Positions 31,058-56,016 are shown, numbered from the stretch's first letter. The stretch: DNA of 64,000 bases from Halorubrum alkaliphilum (GCF_017873815.1 NZ_JAGGKQ010000009.1:1-64000), one strand, 5' to 3'. The notes: generated from the sequence alone by a model not told the origin. Numbers and translations: made by a program.

Positions 31058-31861
31058 TCAGTTTGCCTCATCGCCGTCTTCCGACCGCTCCCGTTGAACA
31101 ACGAGTACCGGGCCGAGAAACCGCTCAGAGACCTGTTTGGACGGCATTCCAAAGACGAACGTCGTCACCGACGGATCGGTTTCTCCCATCACCACGGCGT
31201 CGTGTTCCTCGCCGACACGGGCGATCGCGTCGATCGGTGTCTCCGTCTGTTCGATCCGAGTCGCGACCGCCTCCGGTCTCATCCCGCGTTCGACGAGATC
31301 CGTCCGTACCCCGTTCAACAGCGTCTCTGCGTCCCCTTCGTTCTCCTCCGGACCAAGGATGTGGTACAGCGTCACTCCAACGTCGGTTCCGGCGAACAGC
31401 CCGGCGATCAGCTGCGTGGTGCGCTCGACGCCGACGGTCCCCCTGACGGCGACGAGCACGGACTCGGGATCGTCGATACTGTTCGGGACGAGGACGGCCA
31501 AACAGTCGTGTTCGTAGATAATACGATTGATCGTTGCCTGCTCTTCGTGGGTGAACACGAGCCGGGTCTCGACTGCTGCCCCCGCCGCGGTGAGTCGTTC
31601 AGCGAACTCGCCGAGTTTTTTCATCGCGGTCTCGCCGAACTGCTCGCGCGCCTGTTCGGTCGCAGTTTGTTCGGGAATCACGTGGTAGCCGAGCAGGATC
31701 ACGCGCGCGTTCGCGAGGAGTTCGCTGGTGCCGTCCGGCATCGACTCTCCTTCAAGCACTTCGAGCGGGACAAGCACCGTCGGTCGCTCCGCGTCCTCGC
31801 CCTGCCGTCCGTCGTCAGTTCCGGACTGTTCGTCGGCCGTCGGTGTCTGTGTGTTCGTCAT
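31058..31861 (-). CDS. UspA-domain protein coupled to an amino acid permease
   Basis: 267 residues from the ATG at 31861, one base after the permease stop. There are two UspA-like halves: PTVLVPLEVLEGES and ARVILLGYHVIPEQTATEQA lead the first, VGVTLYHILGPEENEGDAET the second. The last part has DAVVMGETDPSVTTFVFGMP followed by SERFLGPVLVVQRE, the nucleotide-binding style terminal motif, though the classical G2xG9xGS/T is altered. UspA domains fused or coupled to cationic amino acid/APC permeases are common in haloarchaea and are thought to adjust transport to stress or energy state. Cytosolic. Confidence 0.85.
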   Translation of the reverse strand: MTNTQTPTADEQSGTDDGRQGEDAERPTVLVPLEVLEGESMPDGTSELLANARVILLGYHVIPEQTATEQAREQFGETAMKKLGEFAERLTAAGAAVETRLVFTHEEQATINRIIYEHDCLAVLVPNSIDDPESVLVAVRGTVGVERTTQLIAGLFAGTDVGVTLYHILGPEENEGDAETLLNGVRTDLVERGMRPEAVATRIEQTETPIDAIARVGEEHDAVVMGETDPSVTTFVFGMPSKQVSERFLGPVLVVQRERSEDGDEAN

Positions 31862-31862
31862 C

Positions 31863-33257
31863 TTAGAAGTCACCCTTGAGTTCGACATCGGTCGCGTAGT
31901 AGCGGTACCACCCGTATGCGGCGGCCATCACGATGATCCCAACCCCGATAGACGCCGGCTGCATGAACGCGATGAGTCCGAAACTCGCGACTGCGCCGAC
32001 GCCGGCGACCGCGAATCCCGCCGGACACTCGAAGGAGGGGGTGTACCACTCGGGGTTCTCGCGACGCAACTGGATCAACGCGACGCAGATCAGGCCGTAC
32101 AAGACGAGATGGAGGAACGACGCCACCTCGGCGAGCAGCTCCACCTGCCCGGTCGCCGTGAGCACGACGATCGGACCGCCCGCGAGGCCCAGCGCCACGT
32201 GCGGGGTGCCGTACTTCAGGTTAATTTGGCTCGCCGCCTTCGGGATGATCTCGTCGCTACTCACCGCGTACACCGCCCGCGAGGCGCTCAGGATCGAGGC
32301 GTTCGCGCTGGAGAACGTCGCCAACAGCCCGGCGATGACGATGGCGAGCGCGCCCGGGAACCCGACGAACTCGCGGGCGACCTCGACCATCGCGGTCTCG
32401 CCGAACTCGCCGAGGCGAGCGCTCCCGAACGCGCTCGTCGCGACGAAGATGGTGACGACGTAGAACACGCCGACGATGATCACGGAACTGACCATCGCCA
32501 GCGGGAGGTTCCGTGACGGATCCTTGATGTCGCCCGCGACGGTCGCGATCTGTGCGAACCCGAGATAGGAGGTGAACACGAGCGCCGCGGTCTGGAGAAC
32601 CGGCAGGACGCCACCGGGCGGGAAGAACCGCTCCGGCGTCGACTCGGCACCGAACACGCCGAGCGCGTCCAGACTCCCGTACGAGAGGAACAGCGTGAGA
32701 ATGGCCAGCAACACGATCACGATCGCGTTCTGGAGCGAGGCAGTGTTTTCCGTTCCGAACAGGCTGAGCACCGTGAGCCCGATCCCGAACGCCACGCCCA
32801 GCGGCACTGCGGGGCTGATCGGCAGCGCGATCCCCGCCTCCGTGAACACCTGCCCGGCGTAGCTGCCGAGCCCGACCAGATAGAACGCGGACGCGAACAC
32901 CAGACCCAACCAGAGCCCGAGGCCGACGATCGCCCCCGGACCGGTGCCGAGCCCCCGTGAGATGAAGAAGTACCCGCCGCCGCTCCGGGGCATCGCGGTA
33001 GCGAGTTCGGAGGCCGGCAGCGCGACGAGCAGCGCGATGACGGCCCCGATCGCGAACGAGAGCGCCGCCGCGGGGCCGGCGTTCTCGGCCGCGAGCCCGG
33101 GGAACACGAAGATCCCCGCGCCGATCATCGTCCCGATACCTATCGCGAGGCCCCCGACTAGCCCGATCGTCCGTTCGAGCTCCCCCTCGTCCGGATCGAC
33201 ATCGTGTTCTACCGGTGGCTCCGGGGCGCCCTCGGGACCGGCGTCGTCGGTTGCCAT
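31863..33257 (-). CDS. APC family amino acid permease
   Basis: 464 residues from the ATG at 33257. The acidic N-terminal tail (about 35 residues) is followed by [20 protein letters not shown] (the GXG-containing TM1 of APC transporters), [20 protein letters not shown] and about 12 hydrophobic segments in total. [20 protein letters not shown] (TM6-7 loop) also fits the superfamily. The substrate, probably an amino acid or a polyamine-like cation, cannot be determined. It is first in a two-gene unit with the UspA gene. The promoter (33277-33285) lies about 24 bp upstream. Confidence 0.9.
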
Positions 33258-33276
33258 GGTCCCCTTCCGTCGGCGG

Positions 33277-33285
33277 ATAAAAATA
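33277..33285 (-). promoter_or_regulatory. TATA-like box of the permease-UspA unit
   Basis: TATTTTTAT on the minus strand lies about 24 bp before the ATG at 33257. Confidence 0.55.
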
Positions 33286-33400
33286 GCCACCGGCGGTCGG
33301 GAAGCGACCCGGCCCCGCTCCCGAAGCGGCCCTATCGTCACCCGCCCGGGGCGTGCTGGTCGCCCGCAACGGCCTTAAGAGTCGCCCGCAACGAACCGGT

Positions 33401-33997
33401 ATGAGCGACCACGACCGGACGGCCGCGGTCTCGCGGGAGACGTCGGAGACGACGATCGATCTCACGCTCGATATCGACGGCGACGGCGACAGCGAGATCG
33501 ACACCGGGGTCGGCTTTTACGACCACATGTTGGCGTCGTTCGCGAAACACGGCCTCTTCGATCTCACCGTCCGCTGTGACGGCGACACCCACATCGATGA
33601 CCACCACACCGTCGAGGACGTCGCCATCTGTCTCGGCGAGGCGTTCGACGAGGCGCTCGGCGACAAACGCGGCATCCGGCGGTACGCCGACCGCCGCGTC
33701 CCGCTCGACGAGGCGGTCGCGAGCGTCGTCGTCGATGTCGCGGGACGCCCGCACTACGAGTTCTCCGGCCAGTTCTCTCAGGAGTCGGTCGGGGAGTTCA
33801 CGAGCGTCATGGCGGACCACTTCGCGCTCTCGCTGGCGATGAACGCCGACCTCACCCTTCACGCGACGATCGAACGCGGCGACAACGCCCACCACGAGGT
33901 CGAGGCTCTATTTAAATCGCTAGCGCGAGCGCTCGACGACGCGACGCGGCTCGACGACCGCCGGAGCGACACGCCGAGCACGAAGGGATCCTTATAA
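33401..33997 (+). CDS. hisB: Imidazoleglycerol-phosphate dehydratase
   Basis: 198 residues, standard for the monofunctional enzyme. Signatures: [68 protein letters not shown] and [20 protein letters not shown]. The paired His-rich motifs bind the two Mn ions. It dehydrates imidazoleglycerol phosphate in histidine synthesis. CTTAAGA at 33374-33380 lies about 25 bp before the ATG, so it is probably leaderless and monocistronic. The upstream open frame from 33353 is an artefact of extension. Confidence 0.96.
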
Positions 33998-34107
33998 CGG
34001 AGACTCGGGTGTCGCCGACGAGGGGTATTCAGTCACGTCGCGTCCGAGACGACCGAAACGAGGATCGGAATTCAAATACCCGAATCGATAGAACGTGACG
34101 TATCCAG

Positions 34108-34323
34108 ATGACAGACGATCCCGACCGCAACCACGTCCCTAGTCGATCGGTCGTCGTTCAGGAGGACACCCATCAGAACGAGATCCCGGAGAACATCGAC
34201 TCGGAGCTGTATTCTACGGATAGCCCGACCAACTCGTTCCACGAGTTCACTATCGAGCGAGGTGACGACCTCGTCGAAGCACTCCGTGAAAACGGCTACA
34301 CCGTTAATTTCAGGGACCGCTAA
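34108..34323 (+). CDS. Small acidic hypothetical protein
   Basis: 71 residues beginning MTDDPDRNHVPSRSVVVQED and ending NGYTVNFRDR, with FHEFTIERGDDLVEALRENG before the end. The composition is acidic and codon use is ordinary, with slightly lower GC than the neighbours. TTCAAATACC (34071-34080) may be the promoter. No family recognised. It is the last gene before the mobile-element remnant, so it could be accessory. Confidence 0.55.
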   Translation: MTDDPDRNHVPSRSVVVQEDTHQNEIPENIDSELYSTDSPTNSFHEFTIERGDDLVEALRENGYTVNFRDR

Positions 34324-34435
34324 CACACGGTCATACGTCCTTGTGATTCCCGAACCGGCACGCCACCGCGGACAGTCGTTTCGGCGGCGGTTTGCCGTCG
34401 CTTCGCGTCGTCGCGACATCAAGAATTGACATCCT
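34324..34435. other. Intergenic spacer before the IS605-like remnant
   Basis: I see no credible gene in this stretch or, apart from the element below, up to 34966. It includes a GC-rich tract (GGCGGCGGTTTGCCGTCGCT) and runs directly into the terminal hairpin at 34436. Confidence 0.4.
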
Positions 34436-34916
34436 CCTCCGCCTGAAGGCGGAGGAATCCCGAGCGGTGGGAGTTTCAGGTTTGCAACCACGGACGCCGC
34501 CACTTCACGGGAGTCCCCATCTAACCCAGCCATCGTGACGGTGGCTGTCTGGCCATGCCAACTGGCCGTTACTCCTATCCTCGGTGTCGTTGACTTTCAA
34601 CTGTTGTTTTTGCCAGTGGGAAGTCGCTGGCACGTCGCCGGACTCGGAGGTATCGCCGGGCTTGCTCAGGCCGACGGGCACAGCGACGAACCCTTCGAGG
34701 ATTCGTGTTCACCGCGTCGGCGTTTCGGATATTGTCTCATTGAGTGGCGGCGAGGCCGCCTCCGAAGGTCGTTCGAAATCCGCTCCGTTCCGACCTGACC
34801 TTACCCTTTTATACCGGGTCTTTGAACTTCAAACTACGTATTGGAAACTCGAACTGAGGCGTCGAACGTGGGTTGATTCTAAGTTGTCGGATTCATCCTG
34901 CGGCTCAAGCCGCAGG
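34436..34916 (-). mobile_element. IS200/IS605-like remnant or non-autonomous derivative
   Basis: Two hairpins bound about 440 bp without an intact ORF. On the minus strand the distal one (34436-34455) is CCTCCGCC-TTCA-GGCGGAGG followed by AGGATGTCAA; the proximal one (34897-34916) is CCTGCGGC-TTGA-GCCGCAGG. Such stem-loops with a TTCA-type loop are typical ends of haloarchaeal IS200/IS605 elements, the right end also being the guide-RNA scaffold region of TnpB. The interior contains several frames broken by stops and may include a decayed tnpB end. Non-autonomous palindrome-associated derivatives (PATEs) are known in archaea. Boundaries are approximate. Confidence 0.5.
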
Positions 34917-34966
34917 TATTCTCCTTGATTTCGTATAAAAACGCGTACCGTTCGGTTGCGCCCGTC

Positions 34967-35644
34967 TCAGATCTCGGCGGCTTCGCCGTCGATCCGGTCC
35001 GTGTCGTCGTCGGCATCGCTGCCGGCGTCGGAGTCGACACTACCGCCGTCGGCGAGTTCGTCGCCGTCGCCGTCGGCGAGTCCCTCCAGTGCGGACAGGG
35101 CGGCGGCCCTGTACGTCTCGGGGTCGAGATCGTACTCCTCGCGGGCCATGCGGGCGTACTCGTTGCCCTCGTCGTCGAAGGCGGCGACCCGTTCGAGCGT
35201 GCGCTCGGCGGTCTCGGCGACCCAGCGGTCGCGGACCGCGGCGTCGACCTCCGTGATCGATTCGGGTCGGACGGAGACGCGGATCGTCCCGTCGTCGGTC
35301 TCGTACGTCCGGGGCTTGCCCACGACCGCGACGTACGAGGGTGCCTCCAGTTCCCGGAGCTCCGAGGCGGCCTCGGGCTGGTACTGGCCGGCGTAGGTGA
35401 AGAACGTCCCAGTGGGGTCGACGATACGGCCCCGCCAGTACTCGCTGTCCTCGCCGACGTCCTCCGTCTCGGTGAGGGTACCGACGAAGAAGACGCGGTT
35501 TGCGGACTCGCCCGTCGGCAACAGCGCATAGACCGGTGCTCGGTCGTCATCGGACTCCTTGAACGTGTAGCCGGCGTCGTTGAACTCGCTTGCGAACGCG
35601 CGCCGGGCGACCTCTCTCGTGGGGGTTGACTGGCTCTCGCTCAT
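34967..35644 (-). CDS. rpap3: RPA-associated protein
   Basis: 225 residues. REVARRAFASEFNDAGYTFK opens the protein; the OB-like core holds RVFFVGTLTETEDVGE, EYWRGRIVDPTGTFFTYAGQ and YVAVVGKPRTYETDDGTIRV. The C-terminal 45 residues are an acidic Asp/Gly/Ser tail. This is the COG3390 protein co-encoded with RPA1 or RPA3 in haloarchaea; in Haloferax volcanii RPAP3 works specifically with RPA3 in DNA repair. It begins one base after the rpa3 stop, so the two are coupled. It probably forms a complex with RPA3 at single-stranded DNA. Confidence 0.9.
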   Translation of the reverse strand: MSESQSTPTREVARRAFASEFNDAGYTFKESDDDRAPVYALLPTGESANRVFFVGTLTETEDVGEDSEYWRGRIVDPTGTFFTYAGQYQPEAASELRELEAPSYVAVVGKPRTYETDDGTIRVSVRPESITEVDAAVRDRWVAETAERTLERVAAFDDEGNEYARMAREEYDLDPETYRAAALSALEGLADGDGDELADGGSVDSDAGSDADDDTDRIDGEAAEI

Positions 35645-49300: not shown

Positions 49301-50954
49301 CATCTGTTGTAGTTTAGCGGCGCGTCAAGGCGGTGTTTATGCGGATAGTTGAGCGAGACGGTGTTGAGTCGAATCGCTGATGAAGCGTGATCGGGGAACT
49401 GAACGGATGTTCTTCTGTCTCGGATGATGAGATCTGTGGCACTCTCTGAAGGCGGCGCACTCACTCCGGTGAGTGCGTCGCCGATCCAGAGCTGTCGCTA
49501 CTACTTACGTCTGGGCTGACCGCCTTGTCAGGCGAGTTTCTACCAGAACTCGCCTGACTCAACCTGCTCACGTAATCTTGGTCGATGTGGATTTGGATCC
49601 CGTGACGACCACAACAGCAATTCGTCGAGATTTGGCAGTTCATACCCGAGATCCAGCATCAGGTACAGCTGGACCAAGTGTGCGTGACGTTCGAGCGCGT
49701 GAGAACACCGACGACGTGGGAGACGCGTCGACGACGCGGTCGCGTCGTCGTCGCTCCCCTGCCGCTTTGCGTCTAATTTGCGGAGTTCATCCACAATAAC
49801 GCGGCTCATCAGCAGCGAGAGCGCCGCTACGATGATCAGCGCTTCGATGATGTAGGGATCCGTCGTATTGATCTCATCAAGACCGAAGCGCGATTTGAGT
49901 TCCTTGAACAGCAGCTCAATCTCCCAGCGCGCCCGATAGAGCTGTGCGATATCGGGCGCGTGGTAGTTGTCTCTGGCAAGATTCGTTAGGTAGAGATGGT
50001 ACTCATTGCTGTCCTCGTTGAGCACACCGACAAGTCGGAACGTTCGGGTCGTGCTGACGCCCGACCCTCGCTTGCGGTCGAATGAGAGGGTGATCCGAGC
50101 GTCGATCTCCTGTCGCTGCAGGTCGTCGAGGACGTCCTGCAGCGACTCGCCTTCGAGTGGAATACTGTTTCCCCGCCATGTGCGAAGCTCTTCGACGATC
50201 TCGAAGTTCGCATCATCTTTGACACGTGAGACGAACCAGCCGTCGTTTTGGTCGATACGGTCGAACAACCAGAAGTCGTAGAAGCCGAGATCGAGTAAGA
50301 CGAGTGCGCCAGCTACCCACTCGCCGGTGGGTAGCTGGCTCCGTTCCTGCGTTTTGGCGTCAGTCGTTTGAAAACGCGTAGGAAGTCCGGTTGAGAGTGA
50401 TTCTGTGAGGTGGAGCTTCACGCCAGCTTGATCTTCGCCAGTCGCTGCGTAGACGTCTGTAGCGTCTTGGTAGAGTGAGACGATAGAGGCGTCAACAATA
50501 AGGACGTCTCGAAAGCGTTCGAGACGTCCGCTGAGGTCGGTTTGTCCCGGTTCGAGATTCTCGATGGCGTCATCGAGAATCTCTCGCAGGAGTGCAACGA
50601 ACGCGGGTGAAAACCAGCCGTGGAAGGTTGGATAAGCAAGTTCGTCACAGTCAGCCATTTCGACGAAGCGTTCGAGAAATGTCTGAATAGAGCGATCCGA
50701 TCCAGCAGCGAAACCCAGTGAGAGGGTGTAGAACAACGCAACAGTGTCGAACTTGCGCTCTCGTTGGACGAGATTCGTTGCGCGAGCGCGCTCGCGCAAC
50801 TCATCAGAGGGAAACGCTCTTTTGATCCGGTCGACAATCACTGAATCCGGTGGTTGGTAACTCACAGTAGCCACCGGGTTTCTCTGACAGGTAGTCCCAA
50901 CGATATTCAGATCAGGAGACTGCGCTGGCGTGAGGCGTTAAACTACAACGGATG
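49301..50954 (-). mobile_element. IS4-family insertion sequence, ISH8-like group
   Basis: About 1654 bp bounded by imperfect terminal inverted repeats: left CATCTGTTGTAGTTTAGCGG, right (minus strand) CATCCGTTGTAGTTTAACGC, each continued by a less conserved run. Flanks are identical 10-bp GAGCTGTATC copies. One transposase gene on the minus strand, 239 bp of non-coding sequence behind it and 80 bp before it. The element is longer than the roughly 1.4 kb I recall for ISH8 itself, so it is probably another member of the group. Intact ORF, matched IRs and target duplication suggest recent, possibly still active insertion. Confidence 0.85.
49540..50874 (-). CDS. IS4-family transposase (ISH8-like)
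   Basis: 444 residues, intact. DDE-type motifs: the first Asp in RDVLIVDASIVSLYQDATD, the second in LVLLDLGFYDFWLFDRI, and the YREK-like region YRARWEIELLFKELKSRFGL with the third acidic residue. N-terminal FDTVALFYTLSLGFAAGSDR and CDELAYPTFHGWF are typical of the ISH8 subgroup. It catalyses cut-and-paste transposition of its own element. Codon use is somewhat less GC-rich than in neighbours, consistent with mobile origin. Confidence 0.95.
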   Translation of the reverse strand: MATVSYQPPDSVIVDRIKRAFPSDELRERARATNLVQRERKFDTVALFYTLSLGFAAGSDRSIQTFLERFVEMADCDELAYPTFHGWFSPAFVALLREILDDAIENLEPGQTDLSGRLERFRDVLIVDASIVSLYQDATDVYAATGEDQAGVKLHLTESLSTGLPTRFQTTDAKTQERSQLPTGEWVAGALVLLDLGFYDFWLFDRIDQNDGWFVSRVKDDANFEIVEELRTWRGNSIPLEGESLQDVLDDLQRQEIDARITLSFDRKRGSGVSTTRTFRLVGVLNEDSNEYHLYLTNLARDNYHAPDIAQLYRARWEIELLFKELKSRFGLDEINTTDPYIIEALIIVAALSLLMSRVIVDELRKLDAKRQGSDDDATASSTRLPRRRCSHALERHAHLVQLYLMLDLGYELPNLDELLLWSSRDPNPHRPRLREQVESGEFW

Positions 50955-50964: not shown

Positions 50965-51080
50965 AACAATCTCCTACAGAAGAGCGCACTTATAAATTGA
51001 CGCCAGCAACAGCGCTCGATCGCTTATAAACAACCCCACTCCGTATCGCAACGGGATTTCTTTTAAATGAATACGGGCGC
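50965..51080. other. Intergenic sequence right of the IS element
   Basis: No gene seen. It holds two TATA-like words (ACTTATAAATTG near 50990, GCTTATAAACAA near 51021), similar to ACTTATAAACGA left of the element, so the IS split a region of repeated promoter-like words. Confidence 0.35.
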
Positions 51081-51130
51081 GCGACTCGCGACGCTCGTCG
51101 TTTGGTGTGTCCGAAAACGTCCTGACGGAG
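51081..51130. repeat. Distal copy of a 49-bp repeat ending in the tRNA-Arg 3' sequence
   Basis: From CGACTCGCGACGCTCGTCGT through TGTGTCCGAAAACGTCCTGA to CGGAG, the sequence matches 51323-51371 with a single mismatch (TTTGG versus TTTGA). The last bases are the complement of the 3' end of tRNA-Arg. Confidence 0.75.
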
Positions 51131-51215
51131 TCCCACGCGAGCGAAGCGAGCGTGGGGCACGTCAGGGCATGAACGCCGCGGCTGTCGAACGAAGTGAGAC
51201 AGCCGCGAAGTGAGC

Positions 51216-51301
51216 GTCCTGACGGAGATTTGAACTCGAAAAGACGATCCGGTCGCTCACTGCGTTCGCTCCCGGCTGCGACTTTTTTGCTCAAATCTCC
51301 G
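51216..51301. repeat. tRNA-Arg T-arm copy plus its inverted copy
   Basis: GTCCTGACGGAGATTTGAAC at 51217-51236 duplicates the acceptor/T-arm part of tRNA-Arg. Within it CGGAGATTTGA (51223-51233) pairs with TCAAATCTCCG (51291-51301) across 57 nt. Hairpins GGCTGTC...GACAGCC (51180s-51190s) lie beside it. See the matching element at 55541. Confidence 0.75.
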
Positions 51302-51322
51302 CGGAGTTTTCGGACACACGCA

Positions 51323-51371
51323 CGACTCGCGACGCTCGTCGTTTGATGTGTCCGAAAACGTCCTGACGGAG
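51323..51371. repeat. Proximal copy of the 49-bp repeat
   Basis: Matches 51082-51130 with one mismatch and runs into the 3' end of tRNA-Arg (to 51371). Confidence 0.75.
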
Positions 51372-51431
51372 ATTTGAACTCCGGTCCCTGGCTCCGCAAG
51401 CCAAGAGGATAGTCCACTACCCTACCAGGAC
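51360..51431 (-). tRNA. tRNA-Arg (anticodon GCG)
   Basis: 72 nt. Acceptor halves GTCCTGG and TCAGGAC pair (one G-T). Anticodon stem-loop TTGGC-TTGCGGA-GCCAG gives anticodon GCG, reading CGC/CGU. T arm CGGAG-TTCAAAT-CTCCG. No CCA encoded and no intron. A TATA-like CTTAAGTAT on the minus strand (51453-51461) lies at promoter distance. Confidence 0.93.
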
Positions 51432-51563
51432 TCATCTACGTGTATCTCGGAGATACTTAAGACGGTTACGGTCCGGCGGCTCCGTGTTCGGGGCTCGCAT
51501 GGGGTCGATCCCCCTCTACGACGACCGGCCGGAACGACGGGTGTCGGCTCGTGTCACTCCTAT

Positions 51564-51572
51564 CTTATATAC
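51564..51572 (+). promoter_or_regulatory. TATA-like box of the 51594 lipoprotein
   Basis: CTTATATAC is centred about 26 bp before the ATG at 51594. Confidence 0.6.
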
Positions 51573-51593
51573 TCTTGACCCGTCATCGACCGT

Positions 51594-52145
51594 ATGTATA
51601 GGCGCGCCGTCCTCGCCACGACCGCAGCCGTCGCCGTCGCGTCGGTCGCCGGCTGTGTCGCCGACGCCGATCCGATCGACGACACGGACTCGGACGATAC
51701 GGGCTCGGACGACACGGGCTCGGACGGGGACGGGTCGAACGACGGAGCAGACGGTGGATCGAGCGTTGACGCCGCGAGCGACCCGGATATCACGAACGTC
51801 GAGGTTTCTGCGGCCGATCCGGGGGCAACGGGAGCAGCGGGCGAGGCGTCGATCGAGTTCGTGACTGATGGAGTTCACGTCGAGGGGACGGTTCTCGGCG
51901 AAACCGGCTGTCACGGCGTCGAACTGGCGAGCACGGCGACGACCGACGAGGGTGCGCTCCGAGTCGTCGTCGCCGCAGTCGACGACGCGGGCTCCACCGA
52001 GATGTGTACGCAGGCGCTGACCGACATCGGCTACGAGGTGGACGCCGAGTTCGCGGAGGGTCTCCCGGAGTCCGTGACGGTCGTCCACGACGACGCGGAC
52101 GGCCGTGAAGTCGTCGCCACCGACTCGTCCGACACCGACGAGTGA
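51594..52145 (+). CDS. Secreted lipoprotein with Asp/Ser/Gly-rich linker
   Basis: 183 residues. The signal MYRRAVLATTAAVAVASVAGC ends in a lipobox Cys (quoted to the Cys; 21 residues counting it would be MYRR through GC). A low-complexity linker with repeated TDSDD/TGSDD units follows, then a small domain (SIEFVTDGVHVEGTVLGETG, CHGVELASTATTDEGALRVV, MCTQALTDIGYEVDAEF). Two Cys residues (in TGCHG and EMCTQ) may form a disulfide. Anchored outside the membrane. No named family; function unknown. Confidence 0.8.
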   Translation: MYRRAVLATTAAVAVASVAGCVADADPIDDTDSDDTGSDDTGSDGDGSNDGADGGSSVDAASDPDITNVEVSAADPGATGAAGEASIEFVTDGVHVEGTVLGETGCHGVELASTATTDEGALRVVVAAVDDAGSTEMCTQALTDIGYEVDAEFAEGLPESVTVVHDDADGREVVATDSSDTDE

Positions 52146-52165
52146 CCCGGGCCCGGCGCGAACGC

Positions 52166-52174
52166 TTTTATATT
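52166..52174 (+). promoter_or_regulatory. TATA-like box for the ORF upstream of rpa
   Basis: TTTTATATT is centred 26 bp before the ATG at 52196, a standard leaderless arrangement, although no conserved gene starts there. Confidence 0.5.
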
Positions 52175-52195
52175 GAACCGGTCCCACTGAGCGGT

Positions 52196-52345
52196 ATGCC
52201 GAGGGAATCAACGGAGCCTCTACCGGGAGAACCACCGAGGTCGCCGCCGGCCGACCCCCCGACTGCTGACGGCGTGAAAACGGCGCAAGGACAACGCTTA
52301 TCCGCGAAGTCGACCACCCACGAGGTACGCGTATGGGAGCTATAG
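52196..52345 (+). CDS. 49-codon upstream ORF overlapping the rpa start
   Basis: ATG at 52196, TAG at 52343-52345. The peptide is Pro-rich at first (MPRESTEPLPGEPPRSPPAD) and ends EVRVWEL. It overlaps the first 13 bases of the rpa gene in another frame. A good promoter box lies at leaderless distance. Another TATA-like CTTATC (52297-52302) could serve rpa directly with a few leader bases. So the ORF may be a translated leader that tunes rpa expression, or chance. Confidence 0.35.
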   Translation: MPRESTEPLPGEPPRSPPADPPTADGVKTAQGQRLSAKSTTHEVRVWEL

Positions 52346-53823
52346 AGGACGTTTACGAGGACCTCGATACCGACGTCGAGTTCGAGGAGTTCGCGGCGGC
52401 AGTCGAGGACAAAGTCGAGCAGATGGGCGGGCTCGCCGACGAGGAGACCGCGGCGATGCTCATCGCCCACGAACTGCGCGACGAGGAGGCGGACACCATC
52501 GCCGATATCGAGCCCGGGATGAACGACGTGAAGTTCATGGGGAAGGTCACCTCCATCGGCGACGTCCGCACGTTCGAGCGCGACGACGAGGACGGCGAGG
52601 GACGGGTGTGTAACGTCGACGTCGCGGACGCGTCCGGCTCCGTTCGGGTCGCCCTCTGGGACGAGATGGCCGTCGGTGCCGCGGAAGAACTCGAAGTCGG
52701 CGACGTCATCCGGGTCATGGGACGCCCCAAAGAGGGGTACAGCGGACTGGAAGTGAGCGCGAACAAGGTCGAGACGGACGACGACGCCGAGATCGACGTT
52801 CAAGTGCTTGACACCTATCGCGTGGAGGACCTCTCGCTGGGCGCGTCCGATGTCGATCTGGTCGGCAAGGTGCTCGATACGGACTCCGTCCGCACGTTCG
52901 ACCGCGATGACGGCTCGGAGGGGCAGGTGTCGAACCTCACGGTCGGCGACGAGACCGGCCGCGTCCGCGTCACGATGTGGGACGAGAAGGCCGAGCTCGC
53001 CGAGGAGTTCGCGGCCGGCGAGGTCGTCGAGGTCGGCGACGGCTACGTCCGCGAGCGCGACGGCGACCTCGAGTTGCACGTCGGCGACCGCGGAACGCTG
53101 GAGCGCGTCGACGAGGACGTCGAATACGTCCCGGAAACAACCGACATCGGCGATCTGGAGATCGACCGGACGGTCGATATCACGGGCGGCGTCATCGAGA
53201 CGGACCCGATACGCACCTTCGATCGCGACGACGGCTCCGAGGGACAGGTGCGAAACGTCCGGATCAAGGACGACACCGGGGAGATCCGAGTCGCCTTGTG
53301 GGGCGACAAGGCGGACACGGAGATAGAGCTGGCCGACCGCGTCGTCTTCACTGACGTCGAGATACAGGACGGCTGGCAGGACGACCTCGAGGCCTCGGCC
53401 AACTGGCGATCGACGGTCTCCGTGCTGGACGCCGAATCCGCCGGAAACGGCGGGGCGTCCGACGGCTCGACTGGCGGCCCCGGGAGCGGATCGAGCGCCG
53501 GAGGGAGCTCCGATGAAAGCGGACTTGGAGCGTTCTCCGACGGGACCGGTTCGGAAACCGGTTCCGACACGGGTTCCGGAAGCAGCAGTGTGGACGCCGG
53601 CGAGGCGGGAGCCGGGCCCGCGGCGGCCGTGACGGCCGACTCTGCGGCCACCGAAGACATCGAGTTCACCGGGACGGTCGTTCAGACCGGCGATCCGGTC
53701 GTGCTGGACGACGGACAGCGAACGAAGAGCGTCGAGACCGACGAAAGCCTCCGGCTCGGGGAGGAAGTGACGGTTCGCGGAGCGGAGCGAGACGGAGCGA
53801 TCCACGCCGACGACGTGTTCTAG
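52333..53823 (+). CDS. rpa2: Single-stranded DNA-binding RPA protein, multi-OB (RPA2 type)
   Basis: 496 residues. Three OB-folds share the repeated VRTF(D/E)RDDGSEGQV.N motif: about 62-150 (FMGKVTSIGDVRTFERDDED), 170-260 (LVGKVLDTDSVRTFDRDDGS) and 275-365 (ITGGVIETDPIRTFDRDDGS). A Gly/Ser/Ala-rich flexible linker (about 375-445) leads to a short C-terminal OB-like piece (VVQTGDPVVLDDGQRTKSVE). The lone gene arrangement next to histone and deacetylase genes resembles Haloferax HVO_0519, the essential RPA2. It coats single-stranded DNA in replication and repair. Confidence 0.92.
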   Translation: MGAIEDVYEDLDTDVEFEEFAAAVEDKVEQMGGLADEETAAMLIAHELRDEEADTIADIEPGMNDVKFMGKVTSIGDVRTFERDDEDGEGRVCNVDVADASGSVRVALWDEMAVGAAEELEVGDVIRVMGRPKEGYSGLEVSANKVETDDDAEIDVQVLDTYRVEDLSLGASDVDLVGKVLDTDSVRTFDRDDGSEGQVSNLTVGDETGRVRVTMWDEKAELAEEFAAGEVVEVGDGYVRERDGDLELHVGDRGTLERVDEDVEYVPETTDIGDLEIDRTVDITGGVIETDPIRTFDRDDGSEGQVRNVRIKDDTGEIRVALWGDKADTEIELADRVVFTDVEIQDGWQDDLEASANWRSTVSVLDAESAGNGGASDGSTGGPGSGSSAGGSSDESGLGAFSDGTGSETGSDTGSGSSSVDAGEAGAGPAAAVTADSAATEDIEFTGTVVQTGDPVVLDDGQRTKSVETDESLRLGEEVTVRGAERDGAIHADDVF

Positions 53824-53959
53824 CCATCCCGCCCTCGCTGCCTTCCCCACTCACGGTCCACGAGTCCGTAGGGCAAAACCCGCGGTTTGCTCGGCCAAAC
53901 GAGCCGTTGAGCCGCCACGAGGCCGTCGTTTCTCCCCGCAAACGTCGGTAACGGAAAGC

Positions 53960-53966
53960 GTTATAC
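53960..53966 (+). promoter_or_regulatory. TATA-like box of the histone gene
   Basis: GTTATAC is centred 27 bp before the ATG at 53990. Confidence 0.6.
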
Positions 53967-53989
53967 GGTGGACGAACGCGTCTGTGTGT

Positions 53990-54421
53990 ATGAGCGTCGA
54001 GTTGCCGTTCGCGCCCGTCGACCAGATCATCCGGCGGAACGCCGAGGAGCTCCGCGTCAGCGCTGACGCCGCCGAGGAGCTGGCCCGACGGATCCAGTCA
54101 CACGGCGCGGAACTGGCGATCGATGCGGCCGAACGCGCGACCGAAGACGGTCGAAAGACGCTGATGGCCTCGGATTTCGGCGTCGGACAGGTGATCCCCC
54201 GTGAGGAGCTGTCCCTTCCCGTCGCCCCAATCGACCGGATCGCGCGGCTCCGCATCGACGACCGGTATCGAGTCGGCGTCGACGCGCGGATCGCGTTGGC
54301 CGACGTCCTCGAGGACTACGCCGACAACGTGGCGAGCGCCGCCGCGACGCTCGCGCGGCATGCGGATCGACGGACGGTACAGGCCGAGGACATCGAGACG
54401 TACTTCGCGTTGTTCGAGTAG
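53990..54421 (+). CDS. hstA: Doublet archaeal histone
   Basis: 143 residues from the ATG at 53990 (a GTG at 53984 is less likely). Two histone folds in tandem: ELPFAPVDQIIRRNAEELRV with the helix RIQSHGAELAIDAAERAT and the RKTLMASDF strand, then LPVAPIDRIARLRIDDRYRV with NVASAAATLARHADRRTVQA and EDIETYF. Haloarchaea encode such end-to-end fused histones. They bind DNA weakly in high salt and act more like regulators than packaging proteins in Halobacterium. The deacetylase gene begins immediately at the next base after the stop. Confidence 0.95.
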   Translation: MSVELPFAPVDQIIRRNAEELRVSADAAEELARRIQSHGAELAIDAAERATEDGRKTLMASDFGVGQVIPREELSLPVAPIDRIARLRIDDRYRVGVDARIALADVLEDYADNVASAAATLARHADRRTVQAEDIETYFALFE

Positions 54422-55432
54422 ATGCGCTTCGGCTACAGCGAACGGTGTCTCGCCCACGACACGGGCGAGCGCCATCCGGAGAACCCGGACCGCCTCCGAG
54501 CGATCCGTCGCGGACTCGCAAAGCGGCACGGCGTCGAGTACACCGATGCCTCGCCCGCCGAACGTGACGCCGTAACCGCCGTTCACGACGAGGGATACGT
54601 CGACGAGCTCGAGTCGTTCTGTGCGGACGGCGGCGGCAACTGGGATCCCGACACCGTCGCCGGAGAGAAGACGTGGGACGCTGCGCTGGCGTCCGCGGGG
54701 CTCGCACAGTGGGCAGCTGAAGTCGCACTCGACGGGGAGAACGGCCGCCGGACCCCGTTCGCGATCGGGCGGCCGCCAGGACATCACGCCGTCCCCGACG
54801 ACGCGATGGGGTTCTGTTTCTTCAACAACGCGGCCGTCGCGGCACAGTCCGTGATCGATGACGAGCTCGCCGACCGAGTGGCGATCTTCGACTGGGACGT
54901 CCACCACGGGAACGGGACGCAGGACGTCTTTTATGACCGTGGTGACGTGTTCTACGCGTCGATCCACGAGGACGGCCTGTATCCGGACACCGGGGACCTG
55001 AGCGAGACCGGTCACGGCGAGGGTGAGGGAACGACGGCGAACCTTCCGCTTGCGGCCGGTGCCGGTGACGCGGACTACCTCCATGCGGTCGACGAGGCGA
55101 TAGCGCCCGCGATCGAACGGTTCGATCCGGACCTACTCATCGTCTCTGCGGGGTTTGACGCGCACCGACACGACCCAATCTCGCGGATGCGCGTCTCATC
55201 TGAGGGATATGCGTTGTTGACCGATCGGCTCCGCGACGCCGTCGACCGGCTTGACGCGGCGGCCGCGTACGTTCTTGAGGGCGGATACGGTCTCGATACG
55301 CTTGCCGAGGGCGTGTCGATGGTCCACGAGACGTACGACGGTCGCTCCCCGGTGAGCCTCGACGAGGACGAACGTCCTGATCCCCAGACGGAACAGTTGG
55401 TGTCCGAGCTGCGAGCTGCGCTCGATCTCTGA
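54422..55432 (+). CDS. Histone deacetylase-family (class II-like) protein
   Basis: 336 residues. RFGYSERCLAHDTGERHPEN opens the protein; then GRPPGHHAVPDDAMGFCFFN (tandem catalytic His), VAIFDWDVHHGNGTQDVFYD (zinc-binding Asp/His), VFYASIHEDGLYPDTGDLSE and LLIVSAGFDAHRHDP (zinc Asp), VYVLEGGYGLDTL. This is the arginase/deacetylase fold with all zinc and catalytic residues intact. Position directly after the histone gene (stop TAG then ATG) suggests one transcript. Haloferax has a homologue (HVO_0522, HdaI). Actual substrates could be other acetylated proteins or polyamines. Confidence 0.94.
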   Translation: MRFGYSERCLAHDTGERHPENPDRLRAIRRGLAKRHGVEYTDASPAERDAVTAVHDEGYVDELESFCADGGGNWDPDTVAGEKTWDAALASAGLAQWAAEVALDGENGRRTPFAIGRPPGHHAVPDDAMGFCFFNNAAVAAQSVIDDELADRVAIFDWDVHHGNGTQDVFYDRGDVFYASIHEDGLYPDTGDLSETGHGEGEGTTANLPLAAGAGDADYLHAVDEAIAPAIERFDPDLLIVSAGFDAHRHDPISRMRVSSEGYALLTDRLRDAVDRLDAAAAYVLEGGYGLDTLAEGVSMVHETYDGRSPVSLDEDERPDPQTEQLVSELRAALDL

Positions 55433-55480
55433 ACGACGGAACCCGGGTCGAGTATCAGTCACACGGAATCAAGGAGGAAG

Positions 55481-55500
55481 CCCACGGCTTCAGTCGTGGG
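55481..55500 (+). repeat. IS200/IS605-type terminal hairpin, orphan
   Basis: CCCACGGC-TTCA-GTCGTGGG is an 8-bp stem (one G-T) with TTCA loop, flanked by GGAAG and TAACTGACG, the usual right end of haloarchaeal TnpB elements. No tnpB is next to it, so it is a solo end or remnant. The 250-bp gap from 55433 to 55682 otherwise contains only the tRNA debris below. Confidence 0.5.
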
Positions 55501-55540
55501 TAACTGACGATGCTCACTGCTACCGTTGATCGGAACGAAA

Positions 55541-55610
55541 CGCCCGGAGCGGGATTTGAACCTCGGTCGTTTCGTTCGCTCCGCTCACTTCACTCCCTGG
55601 TTCAAATCCC
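55541..55610. repeat. tRNA-Asp 3' fragment plus inverted T-arm copy
   Basis: CGCCCGGAGCGGGATTTGAA followed by CC (55541-55562) repeats the 3' end of the tRNA-Asp genes. GGGATTTGAACC (55551-55562) then has a perfect inverted copy GGTTCAAATCCC at 55599-55610. The 36-nt loop (TCGTTTCGTTCGCTCC...) resembles that of the tRNA-Arg element. Confidence 0.8.
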
Positions 55611-55682
55611 TTTATCTGCGTTCGTCGACGCCGGACTCGCTCGTCGCTGCCGCTCCTCGCTTGTAGTCGGCGTCGACAGAAG

Positions 55683-55755
55683 CGCCCGGAGCGGGATTTG
55701 AACCCGCGTCACGACCGTGACAGGGTCATATGATGGGCCACTACACCATCCGGGC
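55683..55755 (-). tRNA. tRNA-Asp (anticodon GTC), downstream copy
   Basis: 73 nt with discriminator. GCCCGGA/TCCGGGC acceptor, anticodon stem-loop TGACC-CTGTCAC-GGTCG (GTC), T arm GCGGG-TTCAAAT-CCCGC. Identical to the copy at 55787. No CCA encoded. Confidence 0.94.
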
Positions 55756-55786
55756 AAACATTGGCGACGGTTCCCGAAAACGGGAA

Positions 55787-55859
55787 CGCCCGGAGCGGGA
55801 TTTGAACCCGCGTCACGACCGTGACAGGGTCATATGATGGGCCACTACACCATCCGGGC
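55787..55859 (-). tRNA. tRNA-Asp (anticodon GTC), upstream copy
   Basis: 73 nt, identical to 55683-55755. Promoter-like CCTTATTT on the minus strand (55890-55897) lies about 34 bp upstream. The 31-bp spacer contains GTTCCCG-AAAA-CGGGAAC (55770-55787), a perfect hairpin abutting the 3' end of this tRNA. Confidence 0.94.
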
Positions 55860-56016
55860 ACGTCGCATCAGTTCGTACCCCTGTCTGGCAAATAAGGCTT
55901 GTCATCGCCGACGAGGATGGGGAGCCGTGACAATGGATAGGCGGTACGTTTTTGTGTGTCACTCCCGACCGTGCGAACAAGGGACGTTCGGTCGCCGTGA
56001 GCCGCGCACGGCGTGT

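Follow-up and report, generated by a model that had tools for sequence, protein, structure and literature searches.

Repeated tRNA ends at the Arg and Asp loci

The stretch of DNA analysed here, hereafter the window, comprises 64,000 nucleotides (nt) of Halorubrum alkaliphilum (GCF_017873815.1 NZ_JAGGKQ010000009.1:1-64000; contig C9) and is part of a 3.1-Mb haloarchaeal genome whose nearest relatives are Halorubrum species. Two tRNA genes in it, tRNA-Arg(gcg) and tRNA-Asp(gtc), are followed by short units built from copies of the tRNA's own 3' end and from hairpins. The original prediction held that a direct copy and an inverted T-arm copy lie behind both genes, each derived from its neighbour and not from a common tRNA. 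Both kinds of copy are real: the direct copy is exact over 23 nt at Arg, 144 nt beyond the end of the tRNA, and spans 26 nt at Asp (19 of 19 nt by the genome-wide measure given below), and at both loci the adjoining tRNA is the one copied. At Arg, the inverted copy of the first unit fitted tRNA-Arg best among dissimilar tRNAs, with the exception of one tie.

In the sense of the tRNA, the usual unit consists of the mature tRNA end, a first hairpin (A), a partial inverted copy of the cognate tRNA (T'), a second hairpin (B), and a direct copy (T). T begins with nt 54, where the T loop starts, and ends with nt 73 at the mature 3' end; the tRNA itself is thereby left intact. Units are mostly 93-178 bp long and carry no gene. 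The sequence CGTTCGCTC occurs in both loops (51263 and 55573) and at only two further places on that strand of the window. The RNA folds predicted for the Arg and Asp stretches were far more stable than those of dinucleotide shuffles (z = -7.7 and -5.3, respectively); above threshold, Rfam returned only the tRNAs and no other known RNA family for the units. Two features had been overlooked in the prediction: part of the acceptor portion is missing from the inverted copy, and a third, shorter copy turns the Arg locus into an array of two units with a direct repeat of 53 bp (Table 1). In the second Arg unit, repeat and inversion are limited to the acceptor end, and the orientation of the GAGCGAA-type loop is reversed.

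Table 1. Features of the units behind tRNA-Arg and tRNA-Asp, in window coordinates
Feature	Position	Strand	Basis or remark
tRNA-Asp(gtc), second complete copy, upstream in tandem	55786-55860	(-)	
tRNA-Asp(gtc), proximal copy	55682-55755	(-)	ARAGORN and Rfam; the segment repeated as T is its nt 54-73
Asp unit, A hairpin GTCGACGCCG ... CGGCGTCGAC	55611-55681	(-)	fold; A hairpins at Asp of related genomes
Asp unit, T', inverted T-arm copy ggttcaaatccc (sense GGGATTTGAACC)	55599-55610	(-)	12/12 complementary to T
Asp unit, B hairpin, type B1, AGGGAGTGAAGTGAGCGGAGCGAACGAAACGACCGA	55563-55598	(-)	same type at Met, Pro, Gln, and Asp of L039
Asp unit, T, direct copy of tRNA-Asp 3' end	55537-55562	(-)	repeat D2, 26 nt, 96% identity
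tRNA-Arg(gcg)	51359-51431	(-)	ARAGORN and Rfam; segment T is its nt 54-73 (51359-51378)
Arg unit 1, A hairpin TTTTCGGACACA ... TGTGTCCGAAAA	51306-51358	(-)	inverted repeat I4; RNA fold
Arg unit 1, T', inverted T-arm copy ctcaaatctccg (sense CGGAGATTTGAG)	51290-51301	(-)	sequence; pairs with direct copy in fold
Arg unit 1, B hairpin, B3-like, AAGTCGCAGCCGG ... CCGGATCGTCTT, loop GAGCGAACGCAGTGAGCGA	51238-51289	(-)	compared with B3 units from Arg loci of other genera
Arg unit 1, T, exact direct copy of tRNA 3' end	51215-51237	(-)	repeat D2, 23/23 nt
Arg unit 2, short type, 'class II'	51118-51214	(-)	repeats D1 and I1; homologous Arg units in other genera
Arg unit 2, first part: hairpin with loop TCACTTCGTTC	within 51118-51214	(-)	
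Arg unit 2, inverted acceptor end CCTGACG	51160-51166	(-)	
Arg unit 2, hairpin CCCACGC..GCGTGGG	51131-51159	(-)	
Arg unit 2, short direct copy CTCCGTCAGGACG	51118-51130	(-)	third copy; part of 53-bp direct repeat
Start of A region, second copy, after last T	51078-51117	(-)	repeat D1, 96%; remainder of 53-bp direct repeat

The tRNA-Asp gene is itself tandemly duplicated (55682-55860, with a spacer of 30 nt); Halorubrum sp. SD626R (L038) has four successive copies. An open reading frame of 444 amino acids resembling an IS4-type (DDE) transposase lies at 49540-50874 (-), about 200 bp past the end of the Arg array.

Units across the genome and its relatives

Rfam matched 57 tRNAs in the genome. 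A dense tRNA array on another contig, probably proviral, was excluded, and 43 chromosomal tRNA genes were counted. At 16 of the 43, at least 17 of 19 nt of the gene's own 3' end (nt 54-73) recurred within 400 nt downstream; upstream there was none, and about 0.05 would be expected when ends of clearly different tRNAs were swapped in. Loci of related genomes behaved alike, with a downstream copy of the own end at 32 of 92 tRNAs, none upstream, and 1.7 expected. The inverted copies were also specific: in 23 of 54 units the adjacent tRNA surpassed every dissimilar tRNA as a match (about 1 expected), and its median rank was 1.7%. A test by simple ungapped matching of the whole inverted T-arm (12 or more of 17 nt) was abandoned, having given 16 tRNAs against 7 expected; it is a poor one because the inverted copy has deletions, and local alignment was used in its place. 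Tandem units follow tRNA-Lys(ttt), Val(tac), Gly(gcc), and Gln(ttg). At least one third of the tRNAs in this genome thus bear such units, which had escaped the first reading of the window, and the many further loci found by scanning this genome and its relatives dispose of the possibility that no other haloarchaeal tRNA shares the arrangement.

The excluded array (contig C13, approximately 31452-35545; L117, L030) holds 15 or more tRNA genes from a wide range of isotypes, several of them low-scoring, and has a viral or proviral look. No hairpin units were found in it.

A few hairpin cores shared across Halobacteria

The interiors of the B hairpins fall into few sequence types, which are common to unrelated tRNAs and recur across the class Halobacteria. 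The B2 core is CAGTCGCGCGCAGCGA...CACGTCTG and the B3 core GACGAGTCGCAGCCCGG...CGTCTCGGCG; the other two types, B4 and the B1 of the Asp unit, are more loosely defined. The exact B2 pattern was present in 51 of 145 sampled Halobacteria, representing 26 of 58 genera, with no hit for the reversed control; pattern controls for B2 and B3 were both zero. Altogether 143 of 153 places (87 of 93 for B2, 56 of 60 for B3) followed a same-strand tRNA at a distance of up to 600 nt and none lay upstream, in a pooled set that was partly retrieved by tRNA or neighbour-gene queries; the pattern-driven B2 subsets taken alone gave 28 of 30 and 41 of 44. Such places occurred at 24 isoacceptors for B2 and 17 for B3, with the cognate acceptor end at 81 and 48 of them, respectively, and nearly all of the remaining places were inside arrays of partial tRNAs. 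When the B3 pattern was run with one mismatch and no partner arm, it returned false positives in coding sequence (L139, L141, L147, L148, and others), and this variant was rejected.

The original prediction proposed a class of tRNA-derived palindromic elements, and the arrangement is indeed common across Halobacteria. It also supposed that the pattern had arisen twice by the same process; here the data point elsewhere, as the hairpin interiors are homologous between loci and indicate one shared element family. Judged by sequence comparison, the units represent a single, widespread family of short gene-less elements behind haloarchaeal tRNA genes.

The same cores bear on whether any element need be invoked. 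Purely local copies could also come from replication that repeatedly switched templates between tRNA repeats and short palindromes: the succession T, A, T', B, T has the layout of an inverted triplication, the A arm at Arg also copies the tRNA flank, and the arms are always local. This process predicts A and B junctions that are local and mutually unlike, yet the B2 and B3 cores are shared across archaeal families, and the A hairpin at tRNA-Tyr differs from the local flank. We regard replication error as a highly improbable source of the units.

B2 had no match in 205 sampled non-halobacterial genomes of the same phylum, neither B2 nor B3 matched viral contigs in three scans, and a B2 unit had no match among phages; an origin in viruses was dropped on these results. 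Two copies were found on megaplasmids, one after tRNA-Val and one after an apparent intron-containing tRNA-Glu. These findings also make it unlikely that the units derive from larger tRNA-integrating proviruses or plasmids as decayed attachment-site ends, with no mobility of their own. A direct repeat of the tRNA 3' end is a hallmark of such elements (PMC7921747, PMC3119063, PMC3718332), and larger elements do adjoin units at tRNA-Val in one locus (L169) and at tRNA-Tyr in three genomes. However, beyond the lack of viral and phage matches, the plasmid copies, too, lie behind a tRNA; varied remnants do not look like compact, recurrent units that have conserved hairpins and identical tandem copies; and the attachment core of the tRNA-Tyr proviruses differs, starting at nt 59.

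Three observations concern larger neighbours. At L169 (approximately 800-1340, (-)) a tyrosine-integrase-like gene of a larger island adjoins the tRNA-Val unit, around which no tRNA occurs for 1.5 kb, as though the same tRNA end had served as the attachment site of the island. Related provirus-like elements of about 21 kb occupy tRNA-Tyr in three genomes (L360-L365; G194, G011, G187), with an attachment core that lies upstream of the hairpin units and begins at TTCGGGGAGGGCGGA (nt 59); as a helper for the units this element was discarded, its core beginning at nt 59 and not 54. Elsewhere in the genome of the window (contig C35, position 1913; L196), tRNA-Ala(ggc) is followed at a distance of 1.8 kb by a B2 unit that bears a tRNA-Ala end, likely in the rRNA operon.

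Occupied and empty sites

Among 30 genomes of one genus, some have the tRNA-Tyr gene followed by A-T'-B3-T and then the trailer, and others have the trailer alone; in the empty alleles a similar trailer (CTTYCTYTCC.GTCG) directly follows the tRNA. In one genome (G035) a B3 copy interrupts the stop-start overlap of nuoB and nuoC in antisense, with a 10-bp direct repeat, CGTACTCATG, on both sides. The insertion is missing from eight related genomes, which have a single site where the junction was read (L237, L239-L244; fewer bases for others). This was the only B2 or B3 copy found clearly away from tRNA sequence; tRNA loci were gathered piecewise, and no unbiased scan of whole genomes for further such copies was made. 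Presence and absence among close relatives, together with this one off-target insertion, support the earlier suggestion of a small mobile unit; as to the further suggestion that it captures tRNA ends, only cognate arms have been demonstrated.

When tRNA-Tyr was used as a BLAST query, extra copies nearly always started at nt 53-54 and finished at the end of the tRNA. Several genomes also contain a pseudo-half tRNA-Tyr (nt 27-53) that is interrupted by hairpins precisely at 53^54 and then resumes with GTTCAATTC. Taken together, these copies place the apparent joining point at the first base of the T loop.

Stem pairing and matching of the arms

At three variable pairs of the B stem in 115 hairpins, we counted 340 Watson-Crick pairs, 1 G-T, and 4 others. 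Exchanges occurred on both sides of the stem, for example from C-G to T-A, and compensatory changes were seen at six and at eight pairs in two alignments. Because G-U intermediates should be more frequent under selection for RNA pairing, this record suggests conservation of folded DNA rather than of RNA. It is relevant to the proposal that the units are transcribed tRNA trailers maintained by selection, their hairpins having a part in processing, termination, or regulation. Their position always downstream and in the tRNA sense, the very stable predicted folds, and the paired stem changes would all suit such a role; most tRNAs, however, are without units, gain and loss occur inside one genus, one copy lies antisense in nuoB/nuoC, and G-U intermediates in the stem are almost nil. 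We consider an RNA function of this kind quite unlikely. A T.T mismatch is constant, and in B2 a C.A mismatch also; both are written into the search patterns, which accounts for part of this constancy, but units found without a pattern show them as well.

The arms were cognate nearly everywhere, although the cores are shared. Outside the arms, the similarity of B2 spacers was 0.81 for the same tRNA in different genomes of one family and 0.62 for different tRNAs in one genome; for the same tRNA in different families it was 0.45, against 0.49 for unrelated pairs (all small numbers). Lineages thus keep to one tRNA on the time scale of a family and are exchanged between tRNAs on longer ones. Where the distal T was altered, T' still fitted the tRNA in 36 of 40 raw cases and fitted T better in 1; a substantial share of the raw cases are artefacts of how the start of T was parsed. 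A changed T beside a fitting T' is the outcome predicted by a match of T' made at insertion and later drift of T, and speaks against continuing correction through the hairpin. Distal copies at tRNA-Lys in several genera (L262, L270, L272, L274, L275, L252) have an altered T loop, TTCATAATCG in place of TTCAAATCG; similar TTCACAATC changes were observed at Phe and Thr.

Nature of the units and possible mechanism

The units are probably non-coding miniature mobile elements of Halobacteria that reside at tRNA 3' ends, target the T loop, and have a DNA hairpin conserved in structure. Partial inverted copies of the cognate tRNA, B cores common to several tRNAs, tandem units, and occupied and empty alleles are all observed. 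Several points weigh against this interpretation. No enzyme, circle, or insertion event was observed. Some unit-bearing tRNAs, such as Val(tac) and Val(cac), have no recognizable T'. There is one off-target copy only, and its inner arm, TGTGAGTA, fits a tRNA-borne B3 variant about as well as it fits the target; we had taken this arm as proof of copying and withdrew it, since the GAGTA before the B3 core is also present at a tRNA (L140). The 10-bp repeat at nuoB/nuoC is unexplained by simple site-specific recombination alone. The constancy of the T.T mismatch is partly by construction, the search patterns containing those bases. Finally, the distal T is often changed while T' fits the tRNA, and the T'-T hairpin is therefore not maintained after insertion.

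The events envisaged are as follows: a trans-acting enzyme would move the unit into the T loop at G53^T54, leaving nt 54-73 on both sides; as this restores the end of the tRNA, the insertion would be tolerated. Single-stranded DNA, folded as a T'-B-T hairpin, is the probable substrate; the duplex of this hairpin would be the tRNA's own T-arm and acceptor sequence and would mimic the target as the folded attC hairpin of integrons reproduces the double-stranded core site. Cognate arms could result from the choice of complementary targets, from copying at insertion, or from slow homogenization. As candidate mechanisms, an integron-like one would be closest in anatomy, a casposase second, and a guide of the IS200/IS605 type third, with the enzyme step conjectural in each.

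Integron attC sites are imperfect palindromes in which outer boxes are combined with an unpaired spacer, mismatches in the inner stem, and a variable-length terminal structure (PMC2727003). The units share these features, as well as an apparent joining point next to GTT (G^TTC) and arrays behind a fixed double-stranded site; like folded-strand attC sites, their consensus folds with paired changes and has variable terminal loops. Unlike attC, with GTTRRRY and RYYYAAC, the units end in GTTCRAAT and ATTYGAAC, one base longer, and do not fit the R-box consensus; unlike integron cassettes, they are without a gene, their fixed site is a tRNA gene, and each repeats the tRNA 3' end. We did not file them as attC because the outer box differs and no integron integrase was demonstrated (no search for an IntI protein was made). 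It is conceivable, if doubtful, that they form an integron-like system without genes, its attachment sites being the T loops of tRNAs. Folded single-stranded hairpins that mimic the T-arm duplex of the tRNA would be captured serially behind tRNA genes by a putative archaeal recombinase, and the arms would be re-matched to each new tRNA upon a change of host gene.

Haloarchaeal proviruses that integrate at tRNAs have direct repeats of the tRNA 3' end at both sides (PMC7921747), and the units likewise are inserts between direct repeats that restore the tRNA. Those elements, however, are kilobases long with a XerC/D-type integrase, whereas the units are too short to encode an integrase and have an inverted copy of the tRNA flanked by two hairpins. 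Casposons are also archaeal and insert at a tRNA 3' end, and the casposase of A. boonei recognizes TCAAATC, the T loop (PMC6614799); they differ in having terminal inverted repeats, cas1, and a 14-15-bp target duplication, as against about 20 bp for the units at tRNAs and 10 bp at nuoB/nuoC. No terminal inverted repeats were seen in the units. The PATEs and SMRs of Haloquadratum are likewise short, mobile, non-coding repeats that contain palindromes; PATEs are similar to IS605-type ends and have no target duplication, SMR-A insert into PATEs, and a link to tRNA ends is not described (PMC3119063). With IS200/IS605-type elements the units share hairpins, and T' beside the B hairpin is in a guide-like position; unlike these elements or PATEs, they have direct repeats on both sides. 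An autonomous relative, of the kind known for miniature inverted-repeat transposable elements, did not turn up among the B2 and B3 loci, although no systematic search was made. The rtT repeats of the tyrT operon in Escherichia coli are tandem units behind a tRNA gene, each with the tRNA 3' end; they are one enterobacterial locus, and we know of no inverted tRNA copy in them or shared hairpin core at other tRNAs.

In the annotation of Haloferax gibbonsii, partial tRNAs adjoining full copies are recorded, but the unit is not described (PMC7921747). We found no description of these units in open-access full text; subscription literature was outside the search, and their novelty is provisional. 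A class-wide family that occupies and copies the most conserved part of tRNA genes thus appears to have gone unnoticed so far. It would add a new kind of tRNA-end element and explain many of the tRNA fragments in haloarchaeal annotation. Haloferax and Halorubrum would offer a tractable system in which to ask how mobile elements gain arms matched to their targets and whether hairpin-dependent recombination exists in archaea.

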